From the NCBI GenBank assembly GCA_018398765.1, contig JAHBMJ010001550.1:1-57683 (forward strand): DNA of 57,683 nucleotides, read 5' to 3'. This document shows positions 2,026 to 52,800 of this stretch, piece after piece. A model generated the notes under the pieces. That model ran no database searches and was not told where the DNA came from. It was given only the letters and a program-made list of their open reading frames with translations. The first letter of the stretch is position 1; each line of letters starts with the position of its first letter. The position numbers were made by a program, and so were the translations under genes. This DNA is from Chromera velia. Taxonomy: Eukaryota; Sar; Chromeraceae.

Positions 2026-3189
2026 TCATCGTGGAGGCACTTCGCTCGAACTCCGTCCAAGTCCATCCTTCCGGTTTTCTCTTTCTTGCGCTTCCACCAC
2101 CCTCACACCGCCATGCACTGTGCTCAGACCTTCTGGAGGCGGCGAAGGTGCGGCGTTGCGCTGTGCTGAATGGGAAAGGGGACCAGAGGGGGGGACTGAG
2201 GTAGCCGGACTTTGTCGGGGTCGCCGTACAGCATCCCCAGTCTGTCGGAAAGGCTTTCCTGGAACCGCCCTTCGTGCGCGTCCAGTTTCGGCAGCGTTCG
2301 AGGATGAATAAGCGGCGATTTTTGTGAGCTCATCCACGGTCGGGTCTCTGCGTTTTGGGTATTGTGGGGTCGGTGCCCTGGCCTTTCGCGGTGTGGAGGA
2401 GGTGCCATAATCAGGTCGGTAGCGGGGCGCCGCCATTGGAGAGGATTCCCTTCTGGAACGATAGTTGGGTGCCGCGGCCGATCTATCAGCGTTTGATCGC
2501 TGAACGGACGTTCGTGTGGCTGTGGCAGGACCACTTGGTGAAGGCGGAGTGGAAGGAGAAGACTCCGGGACAAACGGTCCTCTGTGTTCTCCATCCCGTC
2601 TCCAAGCCTCGCCCATATAACGCTTCCTGGGAGGTTTCTCCGCTCGTCCCCCCCCTGCCTTTTGGAGGGGCCCCCACTTCTTCTTCCCCCCCCGCCCAAA
2701 TGTTGGTTGGCTGAGGGCAGGAAGAGACGGCAGAATGGAGGAGATCTTCGGAGGAGCCATTTGAGGGAAGTCCTCGATGTCGCATGGCTCTAGGAGCTCC
2801 TGCAGAGGCCTCCTGCAACAAACAAAAGGAAGAAGGAGGGAGATGTGTGTGGAACAAGAATCTTCAAAAACAAGTGGGCGAGCACATAAAAACATGCATT
2901 TGAAAACTACTGCTTTCTCGTACATTCATTCTCCTCAAGCCCACGCCAGAAAAGGAACGTTGCAGCGTTGGTAAGGCACCGTGCCCCGTCTTGCTCTGTC
3001 GATTTCTTGCAGAACATGCCTGCTTCTTTTCTGCACATGCCTTTCGATGATCTTCACGAACGCGGCGGCAGCCCTAAGAGTGGGCATGCAGCAGGAATAC
3101 TGAAGGAGACAGCAAGAAAGGGAGGAACGGAAAGAAAAAAAAAAAAGAGAGAACAAACGAGCCAGCGAGAGAGAGACATACAGAGAGAC

Positions 3190-3220
<31 letters not shown>

Positions 3221-6200
3221 ATGGGGGATAAGAAGAAAGGGCAAAAGAAGAAGAATCAAATTCTGCAGTTTGATACATTTGCATTCACACAATCTTTACG
3301 CATTCCCTACGCACTTATTTTCCAACAGAGCCACTGCTCTCTCCAGTTCATAGTTCACCAGATTCCACGCCTCAGTCGACCTCAGGACCCGACACAAATT
3401 GTGCTGCACATACAGACAGACACACACGGCAAGGGAAAAGAGGAACCAAACAAGCTACCATGCAGTACTTTTTTCGCTCTCAACCTTCTTGAACTCCCTT
3501 TAACGCGGGATAACCTATGGGCCTTCGCTTCCTCTCCCCTTGCCGTACTCAGCTCCCGGAAGGCTATTTCAGCGAGGTAAGAGGCGAAAAAAGAAAAAGG
3601 GGGCGGGCCTCCCACTAGCCTGTCAGACCAACGTGCAGTAAAGAGTCATGAATACTCACAGGGAGCAAAAGAACAGTTGCCTGGCTCTTCTTTCCAGCCT
3701 CTACATTAATGAATCAATCGAATGAAACAAACCCCCCACCGACCAACAGGCCGACCTCAGATTCGAATGGGTCTTCTACTGTGAACCCTTTCCACTCTCT
3801 CTGGCCCTCCCCCTGTGCCCCCCCGGTCTTCCGAGAACTGAACGAAGTCCTTGACACTGAAGGAGCCACGTACAGAGAAGGATGCTTGGACACGAAGTTA
3901 CCCAAACGAAGCGAGGACGTTTCCTGCCCCCTCACAAAAACCCCCGAGAGGAAAGTGAAGAATCCCAGCAGAAGAGAAGCCACTGTTGCCTGACTAGGGT
4001 CCAGAACCCACGAGGAGGACGACCCTCCTGAGGGATCTGCAGGCTCGGTTGTTCTACCGCCGCTGTGTTGTGCTTTCTGCTGCTGTAGTTCCCGGTGTTC
4101 GCTCATTCGCCTCTCCAGGCCGGCGGGAGTACCCACAAATCTGACAGGGGGGCGGTAGAGGAAAGGAAGAACACCGAGTTGTGTGACAGGGTCAGGCACT
4201 GATTTCTGACGACTACAGACAGAAAAAGAGGGACCGAAGTTAAAAAAACGAACTCTTTCGAGTCGGAGGAACCACAAATGAAATGTGGCTGAACCAAAGA
4301 AGGATGGAAGGAAAGGAAGAACAAATTGAATAGATAGAGACACATGCAGACAGACCTGCAGTCATACCAGTGCCCTTGCACCTCCACAATGGCACCTGCA
4401 GGCAGACACACACAAACAAACAAACTCTCCATGCAGGTTCAGATAGAGGCCTCTTCGTTGCATCCTCTCGGCATTTTGCAAGGAACGTTTTGCTCTATCT
4501 AGACGCCAGCTGTGAATTTCGGGGAGCAGAGAAAATGAACGTTGGATGACAAGGGATCAAGGACTAGCTAGCTTGAAAGCACACGAACAGATTCTCGGAA
4601 AGCAAATGTCACATAGGAAGTCCAGCACAAGACGCAGAGTCAAGGAACTTAGGTGTAGAGGATGTGTGGAGTGAGTGTACCTGTGTCAGGGGTGCCCTCC
4701 TGGAGGTTGGGGATCACCCCGGACCTCTGCAGAAAGTTGAGGGCCAGGAGCACGTAGGCGTATGGAGACAGCCCCGTGCCTCTTGAGGGGTCGCAGATGC
4801 CTCTGCGTTTGGCCCACGCCTTCACTGTGAGGACGAAAGGACGGACCTGCACGCACAGGGAAGACAAAAAGGAACGAATGAGATTGATTGTATCGATTCA
4901 AGTTGAAGTGCAAAACACTTCGAGGGAAGAAAAGGTAGAGGCAGACAGTTCCATGTTTTGATGCAAATAAAAAAAGAGCAGACAAGATGCCGAAGCGAAA
5001 ACCCTCACAGACCGAAGGGTGGGACTCCCAATGGATGGAGCGACAAAAATTCAGGGGAGCTAGGGAAGAAGCAAGCGAAGAAGGAAGTGGGGAACAAGAC
5101 GAACCGGTCTGTTTGGATAAAAGAAAGCGAAAATTCTGTCTGGGCTCTCGAATTGACGCTCTCTCTCTCTCTTCACACTTCCACGTGCCTCATGTCTGAC
5201 GGATTCAAATACCTCCATTGGAACACGACAGCTACCAATCACGCATCTCACACCAAAATTCGCGACTTTTCTCTCTTCCCCCCTTTCTGTCTTTTCTCAA
5301 AGTCAACTCCTACCGCTGTCTCAATGGCGTCAAATCCACCAACCCACCCCCCAACCCCGTCACCCACCCATGCACCCCCCCATCAGACTGACCCTCGGAT
5401 CCAGACTCGCGTAGGATCTCAGCAATTCCGTGTTCAACACCCCGAGCCTTCCATCAACAGAAATGTCTGCATCAAGCCCTGTGGCAGGGTCGTGGAGTTT
5501 CACGATGGGGGTCCGTGCATTGGAAAGGAATTGAATCTTCGACAACATAGGCTGCTCCGCCTCTTCTTCTCTGTCTTCATCCTCAGTCTCCCCTTCACCC
5601 TCAGACTGCTCCTCCTCTTCTTCTCTGTCTTCATCCTCACTCTCCCCTTCACCCTCTGTTTCTCTCACACTCTTCTCCTGTCTGTGTTGGCTTTCTTGTA
5701 CTACAGCGCTACAGAGCGCTTTGGTGACCCTTGAGAGGACGTCTTTCTTGTCTTCTTTCTTCAGAGGGAACTCAACCTGGCCCTCAAACATCGAAGTGTC
5801 CAGAGGCAGCAGATCACCCCTCAGAGGGGGCAGCCAGTCCACTTCCTCAGGCCACAACATCTCCACTGTGCCCCTCGGCATAAACAGGGAGACGGAGTGA
5901 CGGGCAGGCATCAGACGACGAGTGGCACTAGAGGTTACTCCAGCCGCACCTCTGGAGAGAATCAACTGTCTGAGCATTCCAGGAGGAAGACGCATGAGCT
6001 TCCATAACGTCACAAGATCAGCAGTGGTGTACCAAGGTTGGCTGAACTCCTCGGTCTCTGTCTCCCCTTCCTCCGAGAACTCTTCCTCCTGCTGATCTGA
6101 GTCAAACACCTCGTGTACTGCTGTATCTGTCACAGGCGGAGGGAATTTGTGCAGGAGGTCCAAGTAGCGTCTCACATCCTCACAGCTGATGTCAGTGCAG

Positions 6201-6562
6201 TTACCTCCTCTGACCAAACAGGTCATATCGACGTCTGCTTTGGGCTGACCAAACCTGGAGGCAGAGGAGCCAAAGAAGGCAAGATCAATTGGGATGCCTC
6301 TCCAAGTGTTACTCCCAAATTCTCTCAATGCGTCCTTCACCTTCTTCCTCGTTTGATCCCGTCCGGATGAGAATCGAGGGTGCGTCTCGCCATCAAGCTC
6401 GGACTCGAAAAGAGAGGTGATGTTCTCATTCAAACTCTGCACGAAGTCAGCCCAGTCATGGGTAGACCCCTCCTCCTCGCTGCCTGGGGCTGCCTGCTGC
6501 TGACTGCAGATCTGCCACCAGGGCAACATGGACCCAAGCCGGTTTCGTATCAGCTGGTCGTT
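2026..6562 (-). CDS. Cid1/TUTase-type RNA nucleotidyltransferase module (3' part of a long gene)
   Basis: It transfers nucleotides (poly(A) or oligo(U)) to RNA 3' ends. Exons read on the minus strand: 6562-5393, 4846-4681, 4395-4356 and 4140-3756, all phase-compatible, then one or two unresolved exons between about 3600 and 2950, and a last exon 2812-2026. The first exon carries the catalytic loop FGSS...G followed by Asp-Val-Asp (about 6235-6227). A third Asp lies in GLDADISVDG near 5470, so the metal-binding triad is intact. Between them is an insertion of about 200 residues with acidic repeats rich in Glu/Asp. The next exon has the hallmark VKAWAKRRGI and FLQ...IPNLQ, and 4140-3756 has the PAP-associated domain (LLLGFFTF, FTVEDPFE). 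The last exon encodes a basic, Pro/Arg/Ser-rich tail. Upstream exons connect in phase 0 from 6826, so this is probably the C-terminal part of a fusion rather than a separate gene. Polymerase versus uridylyltransferase cannot be told from sequence alone. Confidence 0.85.
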
Positions 6563-6825
6563 CTGCAACCACTCAGCGGAGGAGAGGCGGAGAGGGAAAG
6601 AGAGAGCTTTAGAGAAAGGAGAATCAAGTGAGGGTGCCTTGAAATACAACAGAGCAGCATTCATACACAAGAAAAGGCAGTCGACAGAAAAAAGAAACCG
6701 CAGACGGACAAAAGAAACAGAAAGGCACGAAAAATGTCAACAATCATTAAGGGGTTGTGAAGGTGCTTCCCCCCTCTCCAAGCCCCGAACCAAGGAGAGG
6801 ACTGTAAATCAAGGCCCCCACCCAC

Positions 6826-7174
6826 CCTCTCCTTCCGCACAGAAGATTCCAAAACGCCCATCGATGCGAAGAGTTCGGTCAAGGCTGCATCTCTCCGCCA
6901 CTCCTCTTCAAAAATTCGAAGCACATCGGGGGCAATGGTGCGAAACTTTCTGCAGGCGGGTATCGCAAAAAGATAAGAGCAGAGAGAAAGTGAAACACCT
7001 CAGACCAACTGTCGACGATGTAGAGCAAAAGTTGCAGACAAAGCCCGTCCGTTCACGATTTTCTTTTGCTCTCTTCTTTTGATCAAAAGGAAATCGAAAA
7101 ATCAGAAAGAAGTTCTAACTGAGCGAGACGGGCGTCCAGCCACCCCCTCCCTCCTTCCCTCCCTCCCCCAGACT

Positions 7175-7205
<31 letters not shown>

Positions 7206-7910
7206 GGACCGAGCCAAAGGAATCCCAGAGGTCGACATCGAGGCAATGTTGAGGATCACATCAGGTCGCAGGATGAACCGGACGAAGGAGGCCGACTGCC
7301 TTTGAGAGTTTTGTCTGCAAGGAAGAAGAACAAACAGAAATGAACTTGTTTGCGATACTGGGAGAAACAAGATAAGAGATCCCTCACGTCATGTGAAGAA
7401 GTTGTAGACAATTGTAAAGAAAAAAGAGAACAAGAAGGATATGAAGGAGAGACGAAAAAAGAATTGAGAACTACTCGACCAACAAGAAACTAAAGAAAGG
7501 CTTCACTAACAGAGTTCACTTCTCTTTTAGGCGCACCCACTGAGAACAGCATCCATCAAGGCGCCGGAGGGGAGGGTAACGATGACTCACTCATCTGGAT
7601 GGATGGATAGATACCTAATTTTCATCGCTGCATTCGTTCACTTACGCGAAGTTTTGGAGTCTCTGGTGTATCCGCAGCTCCACACAATTCAGACGCATCC
7701 CCACAGGTTCACGCCGCAGTCCCACCGTCCCTGTGCACACAACTGCAGTCTCAACAGGGACCGAAGTAAGGAAGGAAGGAAGGAAGGGAGGAAGGAAGGA
7801 AGGAAGGAAGGATGGAAGGAAGGGCACAATCAAAGGAGATCCTGTGCACACTGATTCCCTTTTTTGAAAAAGGGAGAGTAACTAGATAGATAGATAGACA
7901 GTAAGAAGGA

Positions 7911-7941
<31 letters not shown>

Positions 7942-8654
7942 GAAGGAAGGAAGGAAGGAAGAAAGAAAGAAAGAAACAAAGAAGAAAGGAAGGAAGGAAG
8001 GAAGTAAGGAAGGAACGAAGGAAAACAACCGGAAAAAGAAGACAGCCTGCGACCTGAGACTCCACTGAGTGCTATCGAGAGGAGAGACACAGCAAAAAGA
8101 GGCGAGGGTCTCTCTGACTCCGTCCTGTACTTCGTCTCTAAAGACCTGGAAGTTGGGAGGCATTGAGAATATCTAAGCTGGGTTACGAGAGCAGAGAGAG
8201 AATTAATGAACGCACGTACTTCTGAGCAGTGAGGGTACTTGATTTTTTCTGTAGAGAGAATGGACTCCGCTCCATTGGCTATCCGTGAGGCGGTCGGGGG
8301 AATGGAGGTCCAATTCTTCATCTTCGTTTTCGTCTTCTTCTCCGTCTCCGTCTGATTCAGATCCGTCCCGCTCCCCTTCCGTGTCAGCGGTTTCATCTTC
8401 CTGGAAGTGACTTGGCTTGCCTTTCTTCCCACTCAAACTCGGGCCAACTCCTCTCATTGCTGCTTCTGCACTCGCAAGCCTCCTCTCCCTCTCATTCTCT
8501 CTAACTGACTTAGGAGAGTCTCTATCGTTGTCGTCTTCGTCTTCGTCTGCCTCCTCGATTGCACCCTCTTCTCCCTCAAGGGACCGACCCACAAGCCTTG
8601 CGCGAAGAGACAAAGAGGAGGAAGTTCCATCCTGCACGCACGAACGCTCATCAC

Positions 8655-8695
<41 letters not shown>

Positions 8696-9670
8696 CAACG
8701 AAAAAGGAATCTGATTTCTTCCCCTCGAATCTTGGACTGAACAGTTTCTCATTTTCAGTCGGCCTCCGAGGAGGAGCATCTTAAGGGCGCGTCTTAAGGG
8801 TTGAAGAAAAACTTGCTTGCGGCCACTCCACTCAGTTTGTGGACCTAACAACAGGAAAGCTGCCTTCCTCATTCTCCTTCGTTTTCGTGTTTCGCATCTC
8901 ATTGATGGATGCCCTCTCGCTTCGAAGAAAAAGTCGCTGAAGTCAAATGTCACCGACCTGGTCAACTCTCTGTACTGCCCTCAGAGCTTCAGACTGTCTG
9001 ACGTGCAGCATGTGAACAACCAGCGCAGCGTGACAGAATCTATCCTGAGTACCCGCATCAACCGGGATTTGGTTCATTCCCCCCCCCCCCTCTGTCTGCA
9101 GGTCCGCAGTAGTCGGCAAGTCTAGAGGCAGCCTCGGCTTTCTCTCGTTCCCGCGGTTTGTGGAATGCCCTTCAGGTTTTTTGAAATGAGCATCTATGAT
9201 GGCAGAAAACAAATCAGCGGAGTCCCCGGATTTGAGAGACCCTCTGACCAAATCACCAGGACGGATGAGCCCCGCAGAGGAAAGCCACTCTGGAGGCAAC
9301 CACTCGGAAGCTGCGGATTCCAACGCATCGGAAAGGGAATCCAAAGGGGGCAGGGGCATGCCCTCTGATGGGCGCACAAAAGAACGAAGTGTTGCTTCTT
9401 CGTTCTCTGTCTCCATCTCCTCGCCGAGGGCATGCTTCAGCTTAGGAGGAGGGAGCTGAACGTCAAAGAGGTTAATCATGGGTGCATTAGTCAGTCGCAG
9501 GATGGCAGGCGCTGCCCGATGAGTGCCAGAGGAAACTTTGACGATTTCAGGATCTGCAAGGAGCTGCGCAATCGGCGCAAACAGGGGCACTCCCGCCAGC
9601 CGACCCGTTCCCCCCAACGTCTTTGTGGCAGAGCTTCCATGGTCACTCGTGCCAAATCCCGCGTGGAGGC

Positions 9671-9721
<51 letters not shown>

Positions 9722-11845
9722 GAGGCGGGATATCCAACCCGAGGGTTAGGAGAATCGCCAGGTCAAAGAACAGACTTCGCTGCAAGCAAGAAGAGAAATG
9801 ACAAGCGTGAGCAACATTGCAAGCACATGCATGAAGAATGGCAGTAGGCAAAACATAGAAACGAATTGAATTGCCTGTTCAAGCTTCCTCCGTCTCTACT
9901 AAAGTATTGACTGATTGGCTGACTGACCGTGCCGAGGATCGACTTGCTTCCATCCGCCTCCTCCCGCACCCGCAGAAACGAAAACTGCAGAACGGCCCCT
10001 CCAGCAGGGGACCGGGGAGTGGGAGCGGACCTGAATGGCGTGTTTTTGCTCTGACCTCTGCAGGACAGAGAAGAGAAGAGAAAAGGATCAGAAAAGCAAA
10101 GCGAGAACCTCCAGATGACATTCTTACACGATGCCATGAAGGCTCAAGAGGAAACCACTCTTTGTGATTGGAGACACCGGACCACTGTTGACAGGATCTT
10201 CCGACAGGTGAAGCACGAACAAACAATGCACCTGACCTTGCTCTTTTCGTAGAGATGACGGGTGTGAGGGGGTCTCCGTGGAGAGTCACGACGAGAGAGG
10301 ACCCCCAGCCTTCCTTCCGAAAACTCGCCACGAAGTCTTCCACTTCCCTGCAGAACAGCAAAAACAAAAAGAGAATATTTACTTAATCGAAATGAAACGC
10401 ATAGGGAGCACACAGAGCAGTACTGAAACCGGGAGAAAACATAAGTTATCGACATTTTGTCGACGCCAAAACGGACTGTCAGTGGTATTCGTTCGCTTCC
10501 TGCTCTACCAGAAAAGCGACTTTAGAGAGGCAAAACAACTGGCAGAGGATGCCAACACCTGTGAGCTCTCCTCCTAGATTCCATTTCATGGACCCACGCT
10601 GCCCCTCAATCCCCCCCCCCCTCTCACGTTTGTCCCTCCGGATGGGGCCACCCATGGTCGTTGGAAGTCGCCCAGGCTGCCTGCTTCTCCAGACCACCCC
10701 ACCTGCATCCATCCATCCGACAGACACGTACACCAGTCAATTCGTTCACTCTTCCTGAGAATCAGAGCTGAATGAATAAGTTGTGCGAGGACTCTTCGGG
10801 AGACTCGCATGCAGGGCTTGCAAGGTTTGCGCATGCAAACACAGAGCGAACTCAGGGACGTGGACAGAGACGCGCGTATATCGGCAATGGGAAGAAATAT
10901 CGCGTAAAGAAGAAAAAGATGGAAACACACCGACGCCACACACCAGACACAAAAGCGGTTTCTTGCCCTTCTCCCCTGAGGCAACTGACTGGATGGCTTC
11001 CTTCAGGCAGCTCAGAGGGGGGCTCTCCCAGGGGGTCTGCAGAAGGCACAAAGGGAATTCCTTGGGGATGTGAAAGAAGCAGGGAGAGAGAAGAAAAGAA
11101 AGTGGGAAGCTTGAGTGAGGCCAAAACAAAAACCTGCTTCGACGGATCGACTGCGCAAACAGAGGGACGAATCTTTTGCTTGCAGGCTCAGACCTCAGAC
11201 AGGACCTGCACGAGGCCTAAGTCACACACTCAATTTCAGCAGCACTTTACAGATTTGAAAAGTAGAAGCAACAAGGCACGCGTGACCACCCTCCAGTTGA
11301 CTGACCGCAGAGTTCCTCTCGACTTTCTCACGGATGAGTCCGATCACCTCAGACTCCCATTCGATCGGAGACGGCAAGGGAGCGCCGAGACGATCGTAAA
11401 AAAGAGGTGGTTGGAGAGCGCCTGCAATGAAGTGAGGAGAAGAGAAGAATAGCGAGCAATCAGTGGTCTCCCTCCTTTTCACAGGAAAAACAAGAGACGG
11501 AAAAGCGCCAATCAACCTCCTTTCAAAAACGCAAACAAAATGCGGAAAAGTCCAATCAACCGACGAACCTCGAGGAAGCAGGAAGGGAAGCCGACTAGCT
11601 CCATGTGGGCTTGTGGCTTGGCGTAGACGGGAGACGTCTCTGATGCTTCTGGAGAGGCTTTGGAACTTCGCCTCATCAGTGCTCGGAATGGGAGGGAGAC
11701 GGGTCCCGTCCTTCAAGGTTGGAGAGGAGAGGGGCGTCGCGTTGCCCGAAAGCCGCCCTTCCTCTCTCTCTTTGAGGACATCGAGGAGGTGAGAGATGGC
11801 CCCGTCGGCTTCCTCGGCCTCCGCCTCCGCGTCTTCGTCCTCTGA
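6826..11845 (-). CDS. RNase D/Rrp6-like (degenerate exonuclease plus HRDC-like) unit 1
   Basis: Eleven minus-strand exons join in phase: 11845-11596, 11421-11332, 11036-10949, 10702-10628, 10347-10237, 10057-9928, 9779-8958, 8631-8220, 7742-7646, 7314-7210 and 6949-6826. The order of motifs follows a DEDD 3'-5' exonuclease: SSLVVTLHGDP (first strand), VLQFSFLRV, LFFDLAILLTL, LLADPEIVKV, then NLFDVQL. A helical stretch with RPDVILNIASM and FRTIAPDVLRIFEEEW resembles an HRDC domain. The usual D-x-E is T-x-H and the middle Asp is absent, so catalysis is doubtful. A polyalanine run sits in the 9779-8958 exon and exon 8631-8220 is very acidic. Its first exon (SEDEDAEAEAEEADG) joins unit 2 in phase 0 and its last joins the nucleotidyltransferase in phase 0. 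The family call is by eye; substitution patterns against unit 2 favour third codon positions where I tested them. Confidence 0.55.
7764..8031. repeat. (GGAA)n and (GAAA)n microsatellites in an intron
   Basis: Two purine-rich tetranucleotide arrays (about 7764-7832 and 7906-8031) lie in the intron between exons 8631-8220 and 7742-7646 of the long minus-strand gene. The apparent Phe/Leu/Ser-rich frames across them are artefacts of the repeat. Confidence 0.9.
9671..9720 (-). repeat. CAG/CTG trinucleotide run coding polyalanine
   Basis: A GCA/GCG-type triplet run on the minus strand encodes about 15 alanines inside the 9779-8958 exon. The duplicate exon has a shorter, interrupted version at about 14950-14997. 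The length difference (9 bases) preserves frame. Confidence 0.85.
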
Positions 11846-12071
11846 CTGCAGAAAGAAAGGAAGGGAGAAACAAATATGAGAGGAGACACACATGGAGGCA
11901 ACCAAGGAGGATTGTGAATTGAACGGACGCGAAGATGCATGTCAGGGCTGTAGGTGGCGCTCACAGAGATATTTACTGTTTAAATCCGAGCTGCTGGAAG
12001 AGGAGGCAGTGAAAGATAGTGGCTAGGCAGGAAGAAAGAGGCGTTCCAAACGAACACTTCAAGACACTCAC

Positions 12072-13804
12072 CTCATCTCCTCGGACGAAAAGTTTGGCCA
12101 CCTCCGAATTCTTTTTCCATTGGTCTTCAAAGATGCGCAACACATCCGGCGCAATCGTCCGAAATCTCCTGCACAACCCCACAATAAATGAGAAGCAACG
12201 CACATAAAAACAGGGTTCAGCACAATACCCGTACAGAGCACTGAAGTCTCCACAGGGCAGACCCAAACAATCCATTGTGTCACAGAGAATTTTCAAAAAG
12301 ACACTGAGAAAGGTGGCGACAGAAATCAGGAGACCTCAAACTCACCGGAATTATTCTTCTTCGTTGCTTGTTTTTTATCTTTGTTTGTTTTTTTCTTTCG
12401 TTCGTTCGGTCGTTCGCACTTTCTTTCTCTTTCTCTTTCTTTCTTTTTGCATTTCTCTCCCTCTCCCTTTCCCTCTCCCTCTCTCCCTCCCTCTCTCTCT
12501 CTCCCCCTTCCTCCTCTACTCAGACGCATTCAAACGCACCCACTCAATCCGAGTTACTCACTCACACTCACTCACTGTCGCACTCACTCACTCACGTACT
12601 CACCCACACACTCCACACACACACACACCCTCTCTCCTTACAGTCAGACAGACCTTGGAAGCGGCTTCCTTGAGGACGACATCGCGGCCAGGTTCAGAAG
12701 CACTTCAGGTGTCAGGGCAATCTGAAGAAAAGCGCGCTGCTCCTCTCTGCATCTCAGACACATCAGAAGGATTTTACCACGAGAACAAATATCTACCAAG
12801 ACAGATGTGTGTGGCAATGAAACCTTTACCACCAGCGCACCCTCACGAAATGCTAGAGGATGCACATTCTTTGCGACACGCGAGTAGGCCCTACTGTCTC
12901 CCGTTTCTCTTTCTCTATCTATCTACTGCCACTGCTCCTTCACCATTCGCGCCCCCGTCTTCTCTTTAGGCTCTTCTCTTGCCCCCCAAATCCGCACTCA
13001 CGGGCTGGCCGTCACGGCAGGCAGCCACACATGCACACCCTGGCCGCTCTGTGCGTCCCTCAAGCTCATTCTGTTTGAGCAGCTGTGTCTTTCGGCCCAT
13101 TCTGCCCAAGGAAAAACGAAGAGTCATGCACTGTACCACAAACGCAGTGGCATCAATCAAGAAATATGAAGGTAGGAAAAGTTTTAAGAAAGCTGTAAGC
13201 ATGGGCGCGGGCGCGTGCTCGTGTCCGTTCGAATCTGATTCTTCTGTCTGCTTCCCACCCATGAGTTGGTGGACTGACGCGAAAGCTTGGAGCTTCTCGT
13301 GAATGCGCAGTTCCAGTGTGTTCAGACGGACCCCCACAGACTCTGCCTCTGAGGCCGGGGCACTCCCTGTGTGCACAACTGGAACCAGGGAAAACGAAGG
13401 AAAGAGAGAAGTGTGGTCGGAAATGACAAAGAGAAATTGATGCAGTGGGCAACTCCCAACAGAAAGAGGACCAGGAGTCAGAGAAACGAAAACTCTAAAA
13501 GATGTCGCAGAAGAAAAGCAAAATGCTGTACCACTGAATTGTCTTCAACTGTATGTGTCTCTTTGGCCGATCTGTGGTGGGTAGTCTGGCAGAGAGAATG
13601 AGTGTGAGACCCTCCCGAAAAAAAGGACTTGCAAGCCACCAAAACAGGTCAGACACAATCCAGGAGAGATCGCACTGATCTCAGGCAGGAGTGCGGGAGG
13701 GAAGGCATCGAGGGAGGGGGTGGAACGCCAAACGATAGGCAAGAACATCTAATAAACCAGCAAACAAAGAAAGAGGGAAGGAAGGAAAGAAAGAAAGGAA
13801 GGAG

Positions 13805-13838
<34 letters not shown>

Positions 13839-13899
13839 AAAAAAGAAAGAGAGAGAGAGAGAGAGAAAGAAAGAAAGAAGGAAGGAAAAAAAGAAAGAA

Positions 13900-13948
<49 letters not shown>

Positions 13949-14953
13949 GAAAGAAAGAAAGAAAGAAAACATGCGCCGACTGACTTCTCTGCAGGGAAGG
14001 CAGTTGATTGCTTCGATGAAGAGAATGGACGCCGAACCGCTTTCTTCGACTGGTGTCCCCTTCGACCTCTCCTTCTGTATCCGCGCTTTCTTTGTCCCAA
14101 TCAATTTTGTCAGCTTCAACGTCCTGCAAAGACAGAAAGAAAAACACAGACCAAAGCTATCACGACTGCTAGCTACATGGGCATGCGCTAGAAAAGGACT
14201 GCAACCTCTCGTTGCCCAAAAGCAAAGAAACAGTGGACCGACCTGCTCAAGTCTTTGCACCGCCCTCAGAGCTTCCGACTGTCTGATGTGCAGCATGTGG
14301 ACAACCAGCGCAGCGTGACAGAGTCTTTCCTCAGTATCTGGAGTAATGGAAAGGTCGCTGAGCCCCCCATCACCCTCTGTCTGTAGGTTCTCAGTAGTCG
14401 GCAAATCCAGAGGCAGCTTCATTTTTTTTCTCTGTTCCCAGTCTACGCCTCGATTCATGGGCAGAAAGCGCTTCAATCCCCGAAAGAAAAACAAGGAATC
14501 TGAAATGTGTTGATGGGAAGACTCGAGAAGACCTCCTGGACGGATCAGTTGAGCAGAAGAGAGCCACTCTGGAGGTAACCAAAAGGAAGCGGCGGATTCC
14601 AACGCATCGGAAAGGTCATCCAGAGGAGGGGAACTCCCGCTTTCTGAAGGGCGCACAAACGGACGAAGTGTTGCTTCTTCGTTCTCTGTCTCCATCTCCT
14701 CGCCGAGGGCATGCTTCAGCTTAGGAGGAGGGAGCTGAACGTCAAAGAGGTTAATCATGGGTGCATTAGTCAGTCGCAGGATGGCAGGCGCCGCCCGATG
14801 AGTGCCAGAGGAAACTTTGACGATTTCAGGATCTGCAAGGAGCTGCGCAATCGGCGCAAACAGGGGCACCCCCGCCAGCCGACCCGTTCCCCCCAACGTC
14901 TTTGTGGCAGAGCTTCCTTGGTCACTCGTGCCAAATCCCGCGTGGAGGCTTGC

Positions 14954-14988
<35 letters not shown>

Positions 14989-16967
14989 CTGCTGCTGGAG
15001 GCGGGATGTCCAACCCGAGGGTTAGGAGAATCGCCAGGTCAAAGAACAGACTTCGCTGCAAGCAAGAAGAGAAATGACAAGCGTGAGCAACATTGCAAGC
15101 ACTTGCATGAAGAATGGCAGTAGGCAAAACATAGAGACGAATGGAATTGCCTGTTCAAGCTTCCTCCGTCTCTACTAAAGTATTGACTGATTGGCTGACT
15201 GACCGTGCCGAGGATCGACTTGCTTCCATCCGCCTCCTCCCGCACCCGCAGAAACGAAAATTGCAGGACAGTTCCTCTAGCAGAAGGCCGAGGAGGAGAC
15301 GGCCTCGATGGTGAGGTGGAAGGATTTTGTTGCTGCCGCCTGCAGGACTAGACACAGGGAAAGAAAGGGACGGGGGGGAATTTAGTGCGTACAACTATCC
15401 GCTCTATGGAAACGCAACGAAGAAAGCGACAGCTGTCTCTCCAAGTGTCAATCTGATTGATTCGGCAAGTGGGACGCAGACGCAAGGGGGGCACCCACTT
15501 TGCTCCTGGCGTTATAGCTGTTCACAAGAGCTGTCTGCCATTGATCGTAGATCAATCAGTCGCGCCAAAGGAGAAACACCACCACAATCCTGCCCTTATA
15601 TCAACCGGCAGCACCCCAAAACACGCAAGAAAATCGACAGACCAAGCATTTTTTGCAGACACAACGGGTGTGAGGGGGTCTCCGTGGAGAGTCACGACCA
15701 GCGAGGAGCCCCAGCCTTCCTTCCGAAAACTCGCAACAAAGTCCTCTGCCTCCCTGCAAGAAAGAAGAACAAAGAAAAGAGAGAAGAGAAGAACAAAGCA
15801 AAAAGAGAAGACCAATACAAGTGTGTCATGATCAGCGCCAGAAAAGACTTCTAAGCCAGTAGAGCACAATGACTGTGCCAGAAAAGTCAAATCAGCTACA
15901 GGCCCGACCAACTTGAAAAAGACAAGGACACTCACTGCATTACGAAAGTGCAGTTGATTTTCTTTTCTATGTTCATCTTTCAACCTACCCCGTGCCACCA
16001 CCCACCGACCTCTGTCCCTCAGAAACGAGCCACGCTTCCTCGTTGGAGGTCGCCCACGCTGTCTGCCGCTCCAGACGGTCCCACCTGCATGTGTCCATCC
16101 AGAGCAATTCAATTCAATCAAACCAAGTTTCGCAGAGAACGGATCGCGCATGCACACACAGAGGCGAGGGAGGTCGTGAAGAAGTCCAACAGAAAAGGGG
16201 GAGTGGTAACAAGAGCTCATCAAAAGTGTCCCCACGCCCAAACGAGACAAAAAAGCGGTTTCTTGCCCTTCTCCCCTAAGGCAACTGACTGGATGGGTTC
16301 CTTCAGGCAGCTCAGAGGGGGGCTCTCCCAGGGGGTCTGCAGAAGGCACAAGGAGAGGTCAAAGGCAAAAGTGGAAAGAAAAGACACAGATAAATCGAGG
16401 AACAAAATAATGAGCAAGGTTTTGACTGATGGATCGATTGTCAGTTGGCTTGTACAGAGAGGGTCTTCCCGTCAAACAAATGCACAGGGGGCTTTGTCTG
16501 TTCCTTTGATGAGCTTGAGAAGGACCGTTCATTAGTGAACCTGACGCAATGCAAGTCGGTATGATCGGATAACGCACCGAAGATCTTCCCTCCTCCCTCC
16601 CATGGATGAGGTCGATCACTTCAGAGTCCCATTCGATAGGAGACGGCAACGGAGCTCCGAGGCGTTCATAAAAGAGAGGGGGCCGGTGTTTTCCTTCACC
16701 TTCCGACGTACGGCCTGCAAGCAACCAATAGTTGGTAGCACAGAAGTGTGCTGTGCAATTAAGACCCTTAGGAAGCAGGGAATGGCGCAAGAAACTGACC
16801 TGTAGAGAGGTGGACCGGGCGCGTCTCTGCCGTCTGGACGCTCCCGTCTCCGACCCCGTCTCCACCCCATTCCGACGAAGAGGACCTCAACGACCATTGC
16901 TCGGTCCGTCTCTCTGAGCTCGTGACGAATTGATGCCTGGAGTTTCGTACTCGAAGATCGTTGCGAC
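12072..16967 (-). CDS. RNase D/Rrp6-like (degenerate exonuclease plus HRDC-like) unit 2, N-terminal side
   Basis: This is the tandem paralogue of the 6826-11845 unit, with the same exon order and phases: 16714-16541, 16336-16249, 16084-16010, 15753-15643, 15339-15204, 15055-14243, 14123-13985, 13378-13279, 12746-12654 and 12168-12072. A first exon 16967-16800 is less certain, and the true start codon, probably upstream of 16967, was not located. Conserved blocks are PPLFYERLGAPLPSPIEW, EDFVASFRKEGWGSS, LQFSFLRVREE, LADPEIVKVSSG, LELRIHEKLQAFA and RFRTIAPDVLRIFEDQW. The exonuclease acidic residues are missing here too. Reading 16084-16010 in the frame set by its neighbours avoids the stop seen in another frame. 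The last exon ends in phase 0 before GTGAGT and meets the first exon of unit 1. Together with unit 1 and the nucleotidyltransferase it would encode well over 2,000 residues. Two adjacent genes instead of one remain possible. Confidence 0.5.
13769..13967. repeat. (GAAA)n/(GA)n purine microsatellite in an intron
   Basis: About 200 bases are almost pure A/G on the plus strand. They lie in the intron between exons 14123-13985 and 13378-13279, the positional equivalent of the intron that carries purine arrays in the paralogous unit. Confidence 0.9.
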
Positions 16968-17931
16968 CTGGGAGCAAAAAACCCAGCTGATCAGAAACCG
17001 CAGAGGAGTTAGCAGGGCAACAGGCAAAGACAACAGAAGAAAAAATAAGCGCCTTCATTGCACCCCACGCCCGGCTCAGCAGGAAACTAAAGTAGTAGCC
17101 GACCAGCTGTTCCATTCAACAGACTGGCATTCTTCCACTCTTACGGAACTGAGTGCTTTCCGAGAACAACTGTGGCACTGAGTCTAATCTGAGGCTATAT
17201 GCTTGAAATATGCCACGCAGATTTTGAAAGTAAGTGCCCCCCATGCAGCTTTCTTTCCGGGGCCGTCCGGACCTGATGCGCGCGGCCCCGTAACTCCGTC
17301 GATTTTTCCCGAACTTTTTGAGGCACTCACCCGATCTCACGCGAGGGTGTGTGTGTCCCGCGAGGAGTCTGTATATTTAATTCAAAAAATATTATATTCT
17401 GTTCCAAACTTCCAATATATATATATATCTGTATTAATAGAAACTTGTCTTTTTTTGTTCATATTGGGTGGCTTGTTGTGGGCAGCTACTTTGATACATC
17501 CCCTTGCGAGACACACATTTGCGACGTCGGGTGAGTGCCTCAAAATGTTCTAACTTCTACGAGCAAAATCAAAAAATACTCTCGGGCCATCCGAGGATCT
17601 CACTCGCGCACGCGCCTGAATTATTTTTTCAAAATTGAAGTCTGTTTTCTGCGTGCTGCGTTTCGGCCTCTATGCATCTGTACGTATTCATCTGTCACAT
17701 TCTGTCACGCGCTCTGTTGCCTTCTATCTCACCTCTGCAGCTGCAGTCACACAGCGTTTGCAACCTTTCCTGTTGTGAGAGAAGTCTGTTTCTTGTAAAG
17801 AGCTTCAGACACGAAAAGAACGCCGCTGCCTTCTTGGAATTTACTTCAATCTACGTGCCAGCACGTTTCAGTCAGAGACCTTTTCTCCAGCCTTGTCTTG
17901 TCCAAGCATCTCTCTTTGCTGAACGAAGACA
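16968..17931. promoter_or_regulatory. Divergent intergenic region between the long minus-strand gene and U2AF65
   Basis: About 0.9 kb separates the 5' part of the minus-strand gene from the U2AF65 start codon. It holds the 5' leaders and presumably both promoters. An 18-bp perfect inverted repeat, TTTTGAGGCACTCACCCG, occurs at 17316-17333 and inverted at 17528-17545, enclosing an AT-rich core. No TATA box or other named motif is claimed. Confidence 0.4.
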
Positions 17932-20900
17932 ATGGGACGTCGCAGCAGAAGCAGGTCTCCTAGACGCAGGTCTCCTTCGTACGGGAGAGAGAGGGATTAC
18001 AGAGGAAGAGACAGAGATAATAGAAGTCCCAGGAGAAGAGATGATGTCGATCGCTACTCTCGTCGTGATGATCGTGGAAGGTATGACGATTACGGCAGAG
18101 ACCGGAGGAGAGAGGACCGCTATGATCGCTATGACAGAGACAGAGGAAGGGATTATGACAGACGGAGGAGGGACAGTCCCCCTCGCAGGAGGGACAGCCC
18201 ACCCAGGTACGTCTTTTCCTCTTCTTCCAAGGCTGTTAAGACGTCCTCCGGCTATCCTGATTATCCGAGGACCCGTTTTGGCTCTCTTTGCAGACGTCGC
18301 CGAAGCCCTTCAAGGAGCCGCACCCCTCCGCCCAGACAGCGCATCTCCAGGGACAAATCTCCCAGAGGCAGGGAGAGAGCTGTCGGCAACACCAAGCCCG
18401 CCAAATTCCGGTCAGCCTCCTGCATTCATCTTCATCGTTGTGTGCGTTTTTCGCTTGCTTCCACTAAACTCTCTTCGGCCCTGCTGTTATAACTCCTGCC
18501 CATCATTTGTTCATTGAGGTTATTCTATTGGTGTTATCTGCGAGGGACTCTCTGTGGACAACAGAGATGATTGTCTGGATGTAAGATTCTCGGAATGTCA
18601 TTCTGTTTTCTCTGTAGACTGGCATCATTGTTCTTCTGTTGTTGTTTTCGCTTCCCTGTTTCCCTTTGCAGATTCGACTCCCCCCCCCGAGAAGACGAAC
18701 AGAAGTCCTCAGCCCTCCTCAACGCAGCAATCAAGGACCAGCCCCACCTGATCAGAGTCCTCCAGGGGGCTCACAGCTCTACCTACATGCCTGCAGCCGT
18801 ACAGGCACAGCTGATTCTCAACAAAAAGTCCCAAGCAGCAGCAGCACAGGCAGCGGTTCAGGGGGTGTCTGTCGAGTCTTTTGGTGCCGCAAACTCCGTC
18901 GCCTTGGCAGCAGAAAGGGCCGCCCAGGCTGCGATGGCGAGTGGAATCCCGGCAGCCACCAGCATGCAGGGCAGTGCACCTGCCGCCACCCTTGCCGCTG
19001 TGCAACAGGCAGCTGCCCAAGTCTCTGGAGGTGCGGGTCTGGCTACCCAAGCCACTATCGATGTAGACGCAGAGGAGTTGATCCCTCTCCGCAAGCAGAT
19101 GTTCCTCGAAGTGTCCATCACCGGTATCCCTCTGGGAATGGACGTCCTCAGTGTAACCTCCTTCCTCAACAAAGCGATGGAATCATCCAAGCTTACCATG
19201 GGGGGTGGGGATGCGTGTGTGGGGGGATGGATTTCGACTGACGGTGCTGCTGCATACGTGCAGATGCGATCGATCGAAGAAGCCACTTCCATTCTTTCTC
19301 TGAACGGTATTCCCCTGATGCACAACCCCCTAAAGATCGTCAGACCCCCCCCTCTAGTGGAGCTCCAAGCTGCCGAGCAGGCACGCGAGCAGCTGGGGTT
19401 GATGTTCAAGGGCTCCCGCCCAGAGAGGGTTTGGATTTCAGGTCTGACAAAGGAGTACACCCCCGTGTTTTTCAAACAAATCCTGCAGGCCTTCGGTACA
19501 GTGCAGTACTTCTACATGCCTGTCGACGAAAAAGACCCCGAGAGACCCCATTTGGGCTGTGCGCTCGTGGAGTGGGAGCGTTACTGTCAGCAGCACAGCG
19601 CGATGGAGATCCTTCAGGGGGTAGAGTTCCGCACTCCTTCCGGGAAGCCGGGGCCCGAGGGGGGCCTTTCCTTGAAGTTGGCTGCAGACGCTCTGCAGGA
19701 GCCTGCCGGGGCCTTGCGAGAGTTGCTGGAGGAGTCCCTCGGGTACAAGTCGGGTCAGAGGGCGGCTCCTAGAATGCTGGTGCCGACGCGGATTCTGTAC
19801 TTGGAGAACGCAGTCTCGAGAGAGGAGGTCAGTGTGTGTGTGGGGGTTGGTGGATACAAGAAAGAGGGAACGGGGGGACAGATAGACAGACGAGGAGGGG
19901 GGGCCGTCACATTTGTGTTCAGTAATGGTTCGTAGCACCTAGAGTGCACTTCCTAGAGCACACGACGGTTGGGAAAGGAGTCACTTGGAATATTACGAGA
20001 GTAGTGTGCTGCTGCTTGGTTTGGTTCAGTCGTCTGTCTTGAGAAGAAAGAGGCAACGGGAAGATAGTTAGACAGTCGTTTCTCTTGCTCGTTGTCTGTC
20101 TGCCATGCGTGTCGTTGGTTCAGTCTGCGTGTGGGGGAGTGGGGTCAGACACTGTGTTAGAGGATGCTTCGCGAGCTATCTTCACGGGTCTGACTCCGGG
20201 TGCCCTCTCTCTGTTTCTCGTTTCTCTTCGCTCGTCTCTCGTTTGCGTACTGGCTTGCATGTCTCCCTGCCCCTCTGCCCCCCCTGTCTCGTGTGTGTGT
20301 TTGCGTGTGTGTATGTGCAGTTGGTTGATGACGAAGTGTACGACGAGATCTACCAGGACATCAAGATGGAATGTGCCGAGAAGGCAGGTGAAGTCCTTGA
20401 CTGCATCATTCCTCGACCTGAAGAGAGGAACCCCCTCGATCCTGTGGAGGCCATGGAGAAGGAGAGACTACAGGGGGTCGGGTACTGCTTCATCGAGTTT
20501 GCCTCCGTCGAGGGGGCGGTGAAGGCTCGCAAGGTCAGTCAGCCAGGCGAGCAGGCGGGGAGTGGAATGGAAAATAAGGGTAAACCTTTTTTTGTTTTCG
20601 GGCTGAGGGTCTTTGCGTCAATTATTTCGCTGCGCCCTGTGACCAAGTTCGTGTCTCGAGGCAGGGAGGGAGGGAGGATGGTCGAGGCGGGCAATTTTTT
20701 TCCCTTTTCTTTTGTGCATTTCCCTCTGACCGCTCAAAGGTTGTCCTGTTTTTTGAGCTTCTTGCGTGTCTTTTCGATCGATCAGACCTTGTGGCTGTTT
20801 CGTTTCCTACCTCCTCTCTCTCTGTGTGTGTGTGTGTGTGTGTTCGTTCTCTGCAGATGCTGGAGGGTCGCCGATTCGGGAACAATTACGTGAGAGCGAA

Positions 20901-21246
20901 CTACCTGAGTGAGAAGAAGTACCTGGACAGAGACTTCGAGAACCCCCAACCGAACACGAACGCCGACTCCTCCTCTTCCTCTGCCTCGGGAAGGGGCAGG
21001 CCTGTGGGGGGAGACTCCAGCGACACCAAGTCTGCCCCATCTGTGTCTCAGGAGAGAGACATGGCTGCCGGGGGCCCGTCTCCTCCTCCTGAGCCTTCCT
21101 CTTCGACCGAATCTGCTGTGCCCCTCCCCATGCCAGTGTCTGCAGACGAGCCCATGGCAGACGCAGCCGCGCAACCGGCAGGAGACGGCAGCATCCCCAT
21201 GGCCCTCCCTCCCCCTCCAGGAGCCCCCATCCCCCTGGGTGCTTGA
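17932..21246 (+). CDS. U2AF large subunit (U2AF65), pre-mRNA splicing factor
   Basis: It recognises the polypyrimidine tract at 3' splice sites and recruits the U2 snRNP in the nucleus. Five exons: 17932-18206, 18294-18410, 18672-19827, 20321-20533 and 20857-21246. All phases close and give 716 aa. Residues 1-125 form an Arg/Ser-rich domain (RSRSPRRRSPS). Residues about 170-260 are Ala/Gln-rich. RRM1 starts near 273 (FLEVSITGIP, ending PLKIVRPP). RRM2 starts near 383 (RVWISGLTK). The C-terminal U2AF homology motif starts near 504 (ILYLENAV... GYCFIEFASVEGAVKA... GRRFGNNYV), with the Arg-x-Phe loop preserved. A Pro/Ser-rich acidic tail follows. The start is the first Met ahead of the RS repeats. 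Human U2AF65 is shorter (about 475 aa); the extra length is the RS, Ala-rich and tail segments. No clear U2AF35-binding Trp motif was found between the RS domain and RRM1. Confidence 0.92.
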
Positions 21247-35603: not shown

Positions 35604-41749
<6,146 letters not shown>

Positions 41750-49861: not shown

Positions 49862-52800
49862 TATATAGACCGATTTCATTCCCTTTCAACAGCCAGACAG
49901 TAAAGAGAACTCCCTTTTACCTATCTCCTCCCTTCATCGCTCTATCAGATCCACTCCTGTCTCAGACGGGGAGCTTCTCCCCTCGGCTACAGCAGCTGGT
50001 CAACTAGCTGGTCAATTGGCTGAACAGCTATGGCCTGAACTTGTGAAAATGGCTTGCGAAGCTGAAAACATTGATCTCTCTTCTTTTCCATCCGCTCCCC
50101 CCCTCCCACTGTTTGCTCCCAACTTATGTGAGCAACCGGTGTCCTTGTCTTTCTGTGAACAGGAAAAGTTACTGCTGAAGGAATGAGAAACCACATTGGC
50201 TGGCGTGACAAAAGAAATCAAACGGAAGGATTTGGATGGTCGACAGGGCAGGAAAAAAGTGAGATAAAAGAAAAAGGCCGAATGGTTTGATAATGAATGC
50301 AAGGAAGCAGCAACACTTTGGAGGGAAGCAAGGAAGACGTTGAACAAACTTATGCAATCATGTGAGAATGAGGGAAAAAGTGGGAGCAGCAGAGTGAACG
50401 TGGTTGCCTTAAGACAGACAGTTGAGAGGCAGGCCTGCAGATGTCAGCGATTGCACAACAGGAAAAGAAAGGCGTACGAAAAGCTCTATGCAGAAAAGGT
50501 TGCACTCGAGTTGTCCTCCAACCCTTCAAAGGTCTGGTCATTGAGAAGAAAGCTGCAAAGAAACAATAGAGAGAAAGCCCCTCCTGGTTCCCAGCCTTCA
50601 GTAAAGGACTTTTCTTACCACTGGGCTTCCATCTTCGCTGACTCTCCCTCTGGCAGGGAATCCGCACAAAGAAGTGCCCCCCCTTTCCCTCCTTTACAGC
50701 CAGCCCCGCCCGTTTTTAACTCTTCTTTGCACCCTGGCGCCTTTTCGCAACTGCATGCCCACTCTTATCAGGTTCTCTCTGGCATTCACTCTCCCCCCTT
50801 GCCCCCACCAATCCCTCTGTCTCGCCCTTATTTTTGTATAGAAGAAATAAGGAAAGTCCTTCGGTCCACAAAGGAGGAAAAGGCTGCAGGTTTGTCCGGA
50901 CTCGTCCCTAACTACCTCTCCCTCTGCTTTCAATATTCACCTCTTTCTTGTGCTTTGTTATTTATTTATTTGAACTTAATTCATTTGATATCCGCTTGGC
51001 GAGATGAATGGAATGTAATTAAAATCTGTCCGGTTCCAAAGGGGCCTCCTTCCCCCGACCTTGGTGAATGGCGTCCGATTCATGTTGTCTCACTCTTACC
51101 AAAACTCTTTTCTTCACTCCTCTCTGCCCGTCTTACATCGCAAGTGAAGATTAATCATAGGCAGTTGGGTTTTCAGCAAGGGGTAGGAACAAGAAAAGCC
51201 ATTGGAGCACTTACCGCGCTGATGCAAAAGGCAAAGAAATGAAAGAAGCCCTTGTTAGCATGCTTTGTAGGCTTTAGCAAAGCCTTTGACTCCCTTCCCA
51301 GGGATGTTTTGTTTGAAGTTTTGTTGAAGCAAGGGGTGAGTGTAGTCGATGTTAAAATAATTTGGGCAATGTATACAAATGTGTACGGAAGCATCACTGG
51401 CAGCTCTTTTATGTTTAAAGAAGAGAAAGGGGTGAAACAAGGGGATCCTCTCTCCCCTCTTCTCTTCTTGATTTTCATCAATCATCTGCATGAAAGAGTG
51501 AAGGCTTCCGGTCGTACAGAGGTTCTGCTCGGTGGGGTTGAGTACGATAGCCGTGGTTATGTCGATGACCTTGTTCTCATTGCTGAGAGCGTGCATGACC
51601 TGCAGGTCAGCTTGAATGAATTGAATTCTTTTTGTGAAGAGAGAGGGCTCACTGTTAATTTAAAAAAGATGAAAATCATGTGTCTGTCTGACTCTTACCC
51701 TGCAATTGAAGGCAAGATTATGTTTGGAGGAAAAGAAGTCAAGAGAGTGGGGTCGTATAAGTATCTAAGTGTTCTTTTGTTCGAAGGGGGAGACTTAAAG
51801 GAGGTAATAGAAGAGAAGCTTAGCATAACGAGTAGACGGATGGGTCATGCAAAGAGCGTGGCACTCTCTTTAGGTCGCCTGCCCCCCGCAACAAAAATTT
51901 TGTGTCTATGCGCTTTCTGGTTGCCTGTTGCTCTATACGCGTTTGACTGTCTGCCTGTCTGCAAGTCAGACATAGATGCATTAGATGCCCTTCAATTGTA
52001 CTTTGCCTGTTGCCAATGGGCTTTGAATTTGTCTCTCTCCTCTTTCTGTGTATCTACTCTGTGTGCTGTTGGTCTACTTCCTGCACGTGTGCATATGTCG
52101 ATGAGACTTGCGGGGTATTTGACTAACTTAAAACATATTGACCTCAAGATGCCTGCGGGTACCTGGTTGGCTTTAATAAATGGTGATTGTCCTTCCTCCA
52201 TGATGCACGCATAAAAATTGATTGGGTTGATCGGATTAGAAGAATTTGTGACTGTTAATCCAAGTTATCAAACCATCAGGAGAAGGAAGAAAGCCACCAA
52301 GGTTGGCCGTCTCCTTCTCTTAAGAGCAGTGATCAACCGGGAAGTTGATAAATGGATTGATGCTGGTCTAGAAAGGGCCGCTTCACGGGGGGCGGTTTTA
52401 CAGTTTGGCAGAGGCATTAGACCGAATGTGTTCCAAACGTCTTATCTTACTGCTCAACGTTCGTCTCTCCTTTTTCTTTCCTCTACTTTTCCCTCATCCC
52501 CTTCGTCCCCCCGTTTCGTATCCCTCCCTCACACTACGATCTGATCCTCAGGCCCCTTTTCAACCTTGCTGTATATGTTGCTCGGTGGTTGCCCCTATGC
52601 ACCTTATAGAGGGCTGGAAGACGTGGTTTGCTCTACATGCAAGGGCAAAGCAGACGATCTGCTGCACCGACTGATTGAATACACAGAAACAAGAGTAGAT
52701 TGAGAGGCTCTGAATGCAATTGTAACCGAAATTGAAGCCAAATTAGACAGAGCCCAAGAAAAAAAGAGAAAGTGGTTGCTATCGAAAGACTCTACCCCTC

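Follow-up and report, generated by a model that had tools for sequence, protein, structure and literature searches.

Can a fold that destroys RNA tails be built into the same polypeptide as an enzyme that adds them? The question is raised by a minus-strand locus of Chromera velia on contig JAHBMJ010001550.1 (assembly GCA_018398765.1), of which the whole stretch analysed here, 57,683 nucleotides, is called the window. An original prediction, made from the letters of the DNA alone, had tentatively joined two RNase D/HRDC-like units and a Cid1-type nucleotidyltransferase at this locus into one giant protein. What the sequence itself gives is a chain of exons with its splice phases, the paralogy of the two units, and the family of the transferase with its catalytic carboxylates and histidine. 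Beyond this, the locus is proposed, with about as much belief as doubt for the reading in full, to encode a uridylyltransferase that carries two nuclease-derived, inactive modules in a polypeptide of at least 2338 residues (positions of the exons and other features are collected in Table 1).

The exon chain is, on its coding signals, real. Rebuilt on the minus strand from 16967 to 2026, it comprises 28 exons separated by GT-AG introns and gives a coding sequence of 7019 nucleotides, or 2338 amino acids, with a single terminal stop. About 26 exons with agreeing intron phases had been predicted between 16714 and 3756; the rebuilt model has 25 in this stretch and bears the prediction out, except for the end at 3756, since the gene continues to 2026. 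Outside these limits the chain gains one exon upstream (16967-16800) and two downstream (3403-3315 and 2812-2026, the last with the stop TGA). Codon usage was scored by a leave-one-out procedure in which each exon and its paralogue were excluded from training. The score is above zero in 27 of the 28 exons, the predicted frame being the best one in 24, and none of the 27 introns scores above zero in any frame; the sole exon with a slightly negative score is tE3. TGCAG is the acceptor at 24 of the 27 internal acceptors. Because both copies of exon E2 (16336-16236 and 11036-10942), which also have weak donors, are among the four exons that score better in another frame, the frame of about 33 residues is uncertain there. 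An alternative first exon is possible at 17244-17145 (donor GTAAGA, phase 1, score -0.08). Directly downstream of the gene's stop, the contig end (positions 1-2000) is AT-rich, with a GC content of 0.35 compared to 0.39-0.56 in the other 2-kilobase segments.

Units 1 and 2 are paralogues of ten exons each, with matching borders. Intron phases are equal at all ten homologous introns, with the qualification that paralogy guided the choice of exons and that the E2 to E3 donors were picked to fit. Over 581 aligned codons the units have diverged by 0.22 at nonsynonymous (dN) and 0.52 at synonymous sites (dS); without exon E6 the values are 0.25 and 0.79 (310 codons). In free alignment (with no null for identity), the units share 44-62% identity in eight of their nine homologous introns. 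The intron between E5 and E6 (15203-15056 and 9927-9780, minus strand) is 98% identical, and the DNA tract 15295-14553 is 94% identical to 10019-9274; this excess over the other introns suggests a recent gene conversion over the E5-E6 intron tract, reaching into exon E6. When the organism's own genome (177.8 megabases in 4040 contigs) was searched with unit 2 residues 1-468, 12 exon matches were obtained, every one inside the window. Long microsatellites (GAAA/GGAA type on the plus strand) lie in the homologous E7-E8 intron of both units, at 13760-13970 and 7880-8030.

It must then be asked what the units descend from. The RNase D/HRDC-like character claimed for the repeat fails at standard sensitivity, on the original prediction's own terms, because no exonuclease or HRDC profile matches the units; what stands, weakly, is a resemblance seen with a purpose-built profile, to motif II in both units and to the HRDC-like segment in unit 2. 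This profile was built from RNase D of bacteria (28 proteins) and from Rrp6 (9 rows, among them a consensus sequence) and was searched without filters. Among 2005 sequences, 2000 of them shuffles, it ranks unit 2 first (11.1 bits, E 0.016) and unit 1 second (7.8 bits, E 0.17), the best shuffle scoring 4.3; unit 2 is matched through its motif-II and HRDC segments, and unit 1 through motif II alone. With four DEDD pieces from the same genome added to the profile, the units score 12.3 and 9.2 against 4.3 for the best shuffle, and with loops trimmed they score 13.7 and 8.9 bits with the combined profile, where the highest-scoring of 4000 shuffles has 7.9. None of 198 control open reading frames (ORFs) attained 7.8 bits with this profile; these controls were stop-to-stop frames of at least 200 amino acids, some of them antisense, left after 110 of 308 that scored above 25 bits had been set aside as family. 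When the two units are aligned together, hhalign scores 42.6 over the motif-II segment and 28.7 over a second, HRDC-like one, in family order; over 400 column shuffles, no best hit reached 42.6 and no second-best hit reached 28.7. Descent of the units from a DEDD-exonuclease-plus-HRDC ancestor is, on profile matches of this kind, fairly probable.

Several results weigh against such a descent. Neither spliced nor loop-trimmed units match an exonuclease (DNA_pol_A_exo1) or HRDC (PF00570) family of Pfam at E<=10, the one stray match being PSME4_C (0.032) on the C-terminal segment of unit 1. Single ORFs likewise had no exonuclease or HRDC match in these family searches. An NCBIfam search of the units gave no relevant match, a PDB sequence search made with unit 2 only gave none, and a protein search with residues 1-480 of unit 2, a query outside of which the HRDC-like part lies, gave none at E<=10 with 8000 candidates scored. 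The Rrp6-only profile ranks the units 12 and 18 and the RNase D-only profile 3 and 5, neither clearly separating them from shuffles. With the hidden Markov model (HMM), only unit 2 shows the HRDC-like segment (2.2-2.5 bits). hhalign, for its part, assigns a probability of just 55% to motif II and of 4% to the HRDC-like segment; two of the 400 column shuffles have best hits (36.3 and 29.8) that surpass 28.7, and one of 150 single-sequence controls, the identity of which was not checked, scored 41.6. AlphaFold prediction of exon E6 alone (two sequences) was uninformative, with a mean predicted local distance difference test score (pLDDT) of 35.

The missing family matches, the low hhalign probabilities, the HRDC-like signal in one unit only and the exon without a predicted fold, together with catalytic residues that are not recognised, favour another explanation: the polypeptide is single, but its units are unrelated to DEDD nucleases and form a lineage-specific RNA- or protein-binding module with a fortuitous motif-II-like stretch. 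This is a serious though rather doubtful alternative, given that unit 2, like the alignment of the two units, matches in two segments arranged as in the family, and that both units score above the 2000 shuffles and the 198 control ORFs. The order is the one found in Rrp6/EXOSC10 and RNase D, in which a motif-II segment (its like present in both units) is followed by an HRDC segment (its like in unit 2 and the two-unit alignment). Unlike these enzymes, the units have no catalytic Asp in motif II, motifs I and III are not recognised by the profile, and long loops, a tandem duplication and the lack of a Pfam match set them further apart. An HRDC search of the organism's own genome gave none at E<=0.01.

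If the units do descend from DEDD nucleases, they appear to have lost the residues of catalysis. In the motif II column, both units carry Ala, against Asp in each of the 12 rows displayed (out of 37, one being a consensus sequence). By eye, the place of motif I (A-V-D-x-E in relatives) is taken by VVTLHGD, with TLH for D-x-E, and in the motif III helix, CHAALVVHMLHIRQ, neither Asp nor Tyr occupies its usual place; what speaks against these two placements is that the profile alignment leaves both motifs unaligned. Given the lost motif II Asp and the apparent loss of acidic residues in motifs I and III, the units should therefore not cut RNA. They would be pseudo-nucleases at best, with nuclease activity lost, and are probably dead derivatives of RNase D/Rrp6.

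Whether the units and the transferase are parts of one protein turns on the two joints between modules. Those predicted (12072 to 11845 and 6826 to 6562, both phase 0) were reproduced exactly in the rebuilt chain. Exon E10 of both units terminates in a donor site, not in a stop; read-through past these donors meets stops at 11973 and 6661, after which 127 and 98 nucleotides remain before the next coding exon. Such distances appear too short for the end of one gene and the start of another in a 178-megabase genome, and separate genes are therefore disfavoured. The introns at the joints are close to the median intron length of 263 nucleotides, have the usual splice signals and are non-coding in all frames. 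From this pattern of splicing it is very likely that a single polypeptide runs through both joints; a single transcript would cross the modules, and the fusion of the units to the transferase is probable.

The alternative is that two or three separate genes stand in tandem, a duplicated unknown gene lying upstream of a stand-alone uridylyltransferase gene. ATGs are present toward the 3' ends of both joint introns (one each where u2E0 and tE1 are extended in frame), and no fused homologue was found in a protein search: with residues 1-2100 as a fused query and 8000 candidates scored, there were two matches covering 5-6% of the query, both of them PF22600 proteins. A stand-alone transferase model of less than about 1286 amino acids would escape both homologue searches owing to length limits and the choice of query. 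Separate genes are nevertheless unlikely when set against the two E10 exons that end in donors, the 127 and 98 nucleotides left after the read-through stops, and joint introns that are non-coding in every frame and have the splice signals and lengths usual for the gene; moreover, the phase agreement at the joints would then be chance, one in nine. A literature search found no paper describing a fusion of a uridylyltransferase to a nuclease-like module, which is not proof of absence.

The C-terminal part of the single polypeptide is the most readily recognised. The spliced protein matches PF22600 with an E value of 8.2e-18 (65 bits, the cut-off being 27), and PDB sequence matches include URT1 of Arabidopsis (1.8e-28), TUT4 (3.2e-25), GLD2 (7.6e-19) and Cid1 (1.6e-17), as well as TUT7. 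These values bear out the predicted Cid1-type nucleotidyltransferase. They do not bear out the Trf4-type reading that accompanied it, the nearest relatives being URT1 and TUT4/TUT7 and yeast Trf4 (entered as poly(A) RNA polymerase protein 2) much weaker at 2.4e-5. The product of the 3' exons is colinear with the C-terminus of the solved URT1, weakly when taken alone (E 0.0067), and at E<1 the C-terminal piece matches only URT1, a 3' terminal uridylyl transferase and Cid1. PAP_assoc (PF03828) scores 0.042 and 0.26, under the cut-off; over that stretch, Cid1 and the 3' terminal uridylyl transferase can be aligned at 0.06-0.23. ADVDM lies opposite SDIDV of URT1, and in the column of the third strand the second Asp of LDADISVDG faces an Ala in the crystallised URT1 chain, which we take to be a mutated Asp; the three carboxylates are presumably the catalytic ones.

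The joined product of tE4 and tE5 has EDPFESEHN where URT1 has EDPFETSHD and Cid1 has EDPFEISHN. In such enzymes, a histidine inserted at the active site changes the preference from ATP to UTP (PMC6053540); given this role and the presence of the histidine of URT1 and Cid1, uridylylation is predicted. Two points speak against it: the adenylating GLD2 is also a good match to the transferase, and one true 3' terminal uridylyl transferase has EDPYEENLN, without the histidine, which is thus not universal among enzymes that add U. By sequence the transferase is of the Cid1/URT1 uridylyltransferase type, its preference would be for UTP, and uridine addition fits better than adenylation of the Trf4 type. 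A version in which working exonuclease modules and an adenylating Trf4-type transferase form a single-chain nuclear surveillance machine, for which the DEDD-like, HRDC-like and nucleotidyltransferase architecture, the PAP_assoc-like segment and the GLD2 match could be cited, is barely credible in the face of Ala for the motif II Asp in both units, no acids at the places of motifs I and III (by eye), uridylyltransferases as the best transferase matches with Trf4 far behind, and no Trf4 among the 10 matches of the C-terminal piece.

Within the palm domain, a 54-bp in-frame tandem duplication (5549-5656, minus strand, 94% identical) lengthens the acidic insertion. The organism's own genome has 11 PF22600 matches, one of which is this gene; two others among them, the loci L006 (C3942) and L008 (C111), are by eye near-identical copies of another nucleotidyltransferase gene.

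On the preferred reading, the locus would yield one polypeptide in which two tandem dead DEDD-plus-HRDC modules of RNase D/Rrp6 type precede a predicted active uridylyltransferase of the Cid1/URT1 kind. The pseudo-nuclease modules may capture either RNA at its 3' end or a partner complex, and so present the RNA end to the transferase for the addition of uridines. Such an adaptor role, toward RNA or protein, is suggested by analogy to the inactive N-terminal half of TUT4/TUT7 or to the pseudo-nuclease EXD1. The transferase has in common with URT1 and Cid1 a palm with three carboxylates, the histidine of EDPFExxHN/D and, below the Pfam cut-off, a PAP_assoc-like region; it differs from them in its insertion of about 200 residues between the DxD and third-carboxylate strands and in its long basic tail, and we know of no URT1 or Cid1 with two extra N-terminal modules of this kind. 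In TUT4/TUT7, an inactive enzyme-derived N-terminal half meets Lin28 and pre-let-7 (PMC6240794). These enzymes likewise have an active C-terminal uridylyltransferase, but their inactive half is a dead nucleotidyltransferase, whereas here it would be a nuclease-like module. EXD1, Exuperantia and Maelstrom are kin of the DEDD nucleases, and to our knowledge none is fused to a nucleotidyltransferase. All three are described as pseudo-nucleases in RNA-regulating complexes (PMC8097288), nuclease-derived and inactive as is proposed for the units. If the locus does make one protein, a uridylyltransferase would have acquired two decayed exonuclease copies as its targeting part, and a tail-destroying fold would have been turned into a helper of tail addition. 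This would parallel the dead half of TUT4/TUT7 with an inactive recruiting part of new origin, from a different enzyme.

In chromerids, plastid mRNAs have poly(U) tails at their 3' ends (PMC3894158), and searches of open-access literature showed no paper naming the enzyme that adds them. The protein might be the missing enzyme, a nucleus-encoded, plastid-imported poly(U) polymerase of chromerids and, by extension, of dinoflagellates, its pseudo-nuclease modules recognising processed plastid mRNA 3' ends; this is quite improbable. An upstream open ORF (17115-16768, minus strand) begins with MEQLVGYYFSFLLSRAWGAMKALIFSSVVFACCPANSSAVSDQLGF, a signal-peptide-like stretch. From its second Met the ORF has a codon score of -0.40 and a pyrimidine content of 0.68, like an intron end (intron ends score -0.52, standard deviation 0.20). 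A plastid presequence read from 17115-16800 was rejected because it looks like an intron end. A plastid role is unlikely, then, because the upstream ORF scores as such an end and a different first exon is possible. The host's own genome gave 58 chlorophyll-binding exon matches and an exon of a plastid-type Prex polymerase; a search of it for RuBisCO found none. The host would appear from these matches to be a photosynthetic alveolate.

Table 1. Features of the locus, with positions in the window and the evidence for each
Feature	Position	Strand	Basis or remark
Complete spliced model	2026..16967	-	28 exons, 2338 amino acids as far as traced, N-terminus unsettled; leave-one-out coding scores
First traced exon u1E0, linker	16800..16967	-	acceptor TCCCAG, atypical for the gene
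Unit 1, exons E1-E10: 16714-16578, 16336-16236, 16084-16010, 15753-15643, 15339-15204, 15055-14243, 14123-13985, 13366-13279, 12746-12654, 12168-12072	12072..16714	-	exon-by-exon paralogy to unit 2
Unit 1 exon E6, DEDD motif-II-like segment (ADPEIVKVSSGTHRAAPAIL...NLFDVQ) and motif-III-like helix	14243..15055	-	motif II by profile; motif III by eye
Unit 1 counterpart of HRDC-like segment, E8-E10	12072..13366	-	paralogy with unit 2 and two-unit alignment
Joint 1, intron between units 1 and 2, 226 nucleotides, phase 0	11846..12071	-	donor GTGAGT, acceptor TGCAG
Acidic linker exon u2E0	11569..11845	-	rebuilt chain
Unit 2, exons E1-E10: 11421-11306, 11036-10942, 10702-10628, 10347-10237, 10057-9928, 9779-8958, 8631-8220, 7730-7646, 7314-7210, 6949-6826	6826..11421	-	exon-by-exon paralogy to unit 1
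Unit 2 exon E6, motif-II-like segment	8958..9779	-	profile search and hhalign
Unit 2 HRDC-like segment, E8-E10	6826..7730	-	HMM search and hhalign
Joint 2, intron between unit 2 and transferase, 263 nucleotides, phase 0	6563..6825	-	donor GTGGGT, acceptor TGCAG
tE1: palm domain, DxD (ADVDM), insertion of about 200 residues with acidic repeats, third-carboxylate region (LDADISVDG)	5393..6562	-	PF22600, URT1 alignment
tE2 (VKAWAKRRGI... SPYAYVLLALNFLQ)	4681..4846	-	PDB sequence alignment
tE3	4356..4395	-	rebuilt chain
tE4, PAP_assoc-like	3756..4212	-	below Pfam cut-off
tE5; with tE4 yields EDPFESEHN, histidine placed as in URT1 and Cid1	3315..3403	-	PDB sequence alignment
tE6: end of transferase fold (RPLQELLEP) and basic Pro/Ser-rich tail, stop at 2026-2028	2026..2812	-	chain, URT1 alignment

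Elsewhere in the window, an Rfam search at gathering scores gave no match. A divergent neighbour on the plus strand (17923-21243, limits approximate) has an Arg/Ser-rich start and an RRM domain (PF00076, 1.1e-6) and by eye resembles a splicing factor of U2AF65 type. Also by eye, exons at 36673-39753 (minus strand) resemble an FtsH-type AAA protease, and ORFs at 50268-52211 (plus strand) are reverse-transcriptase-like, as in an element of the non-LTR (long terminal repeat) type.

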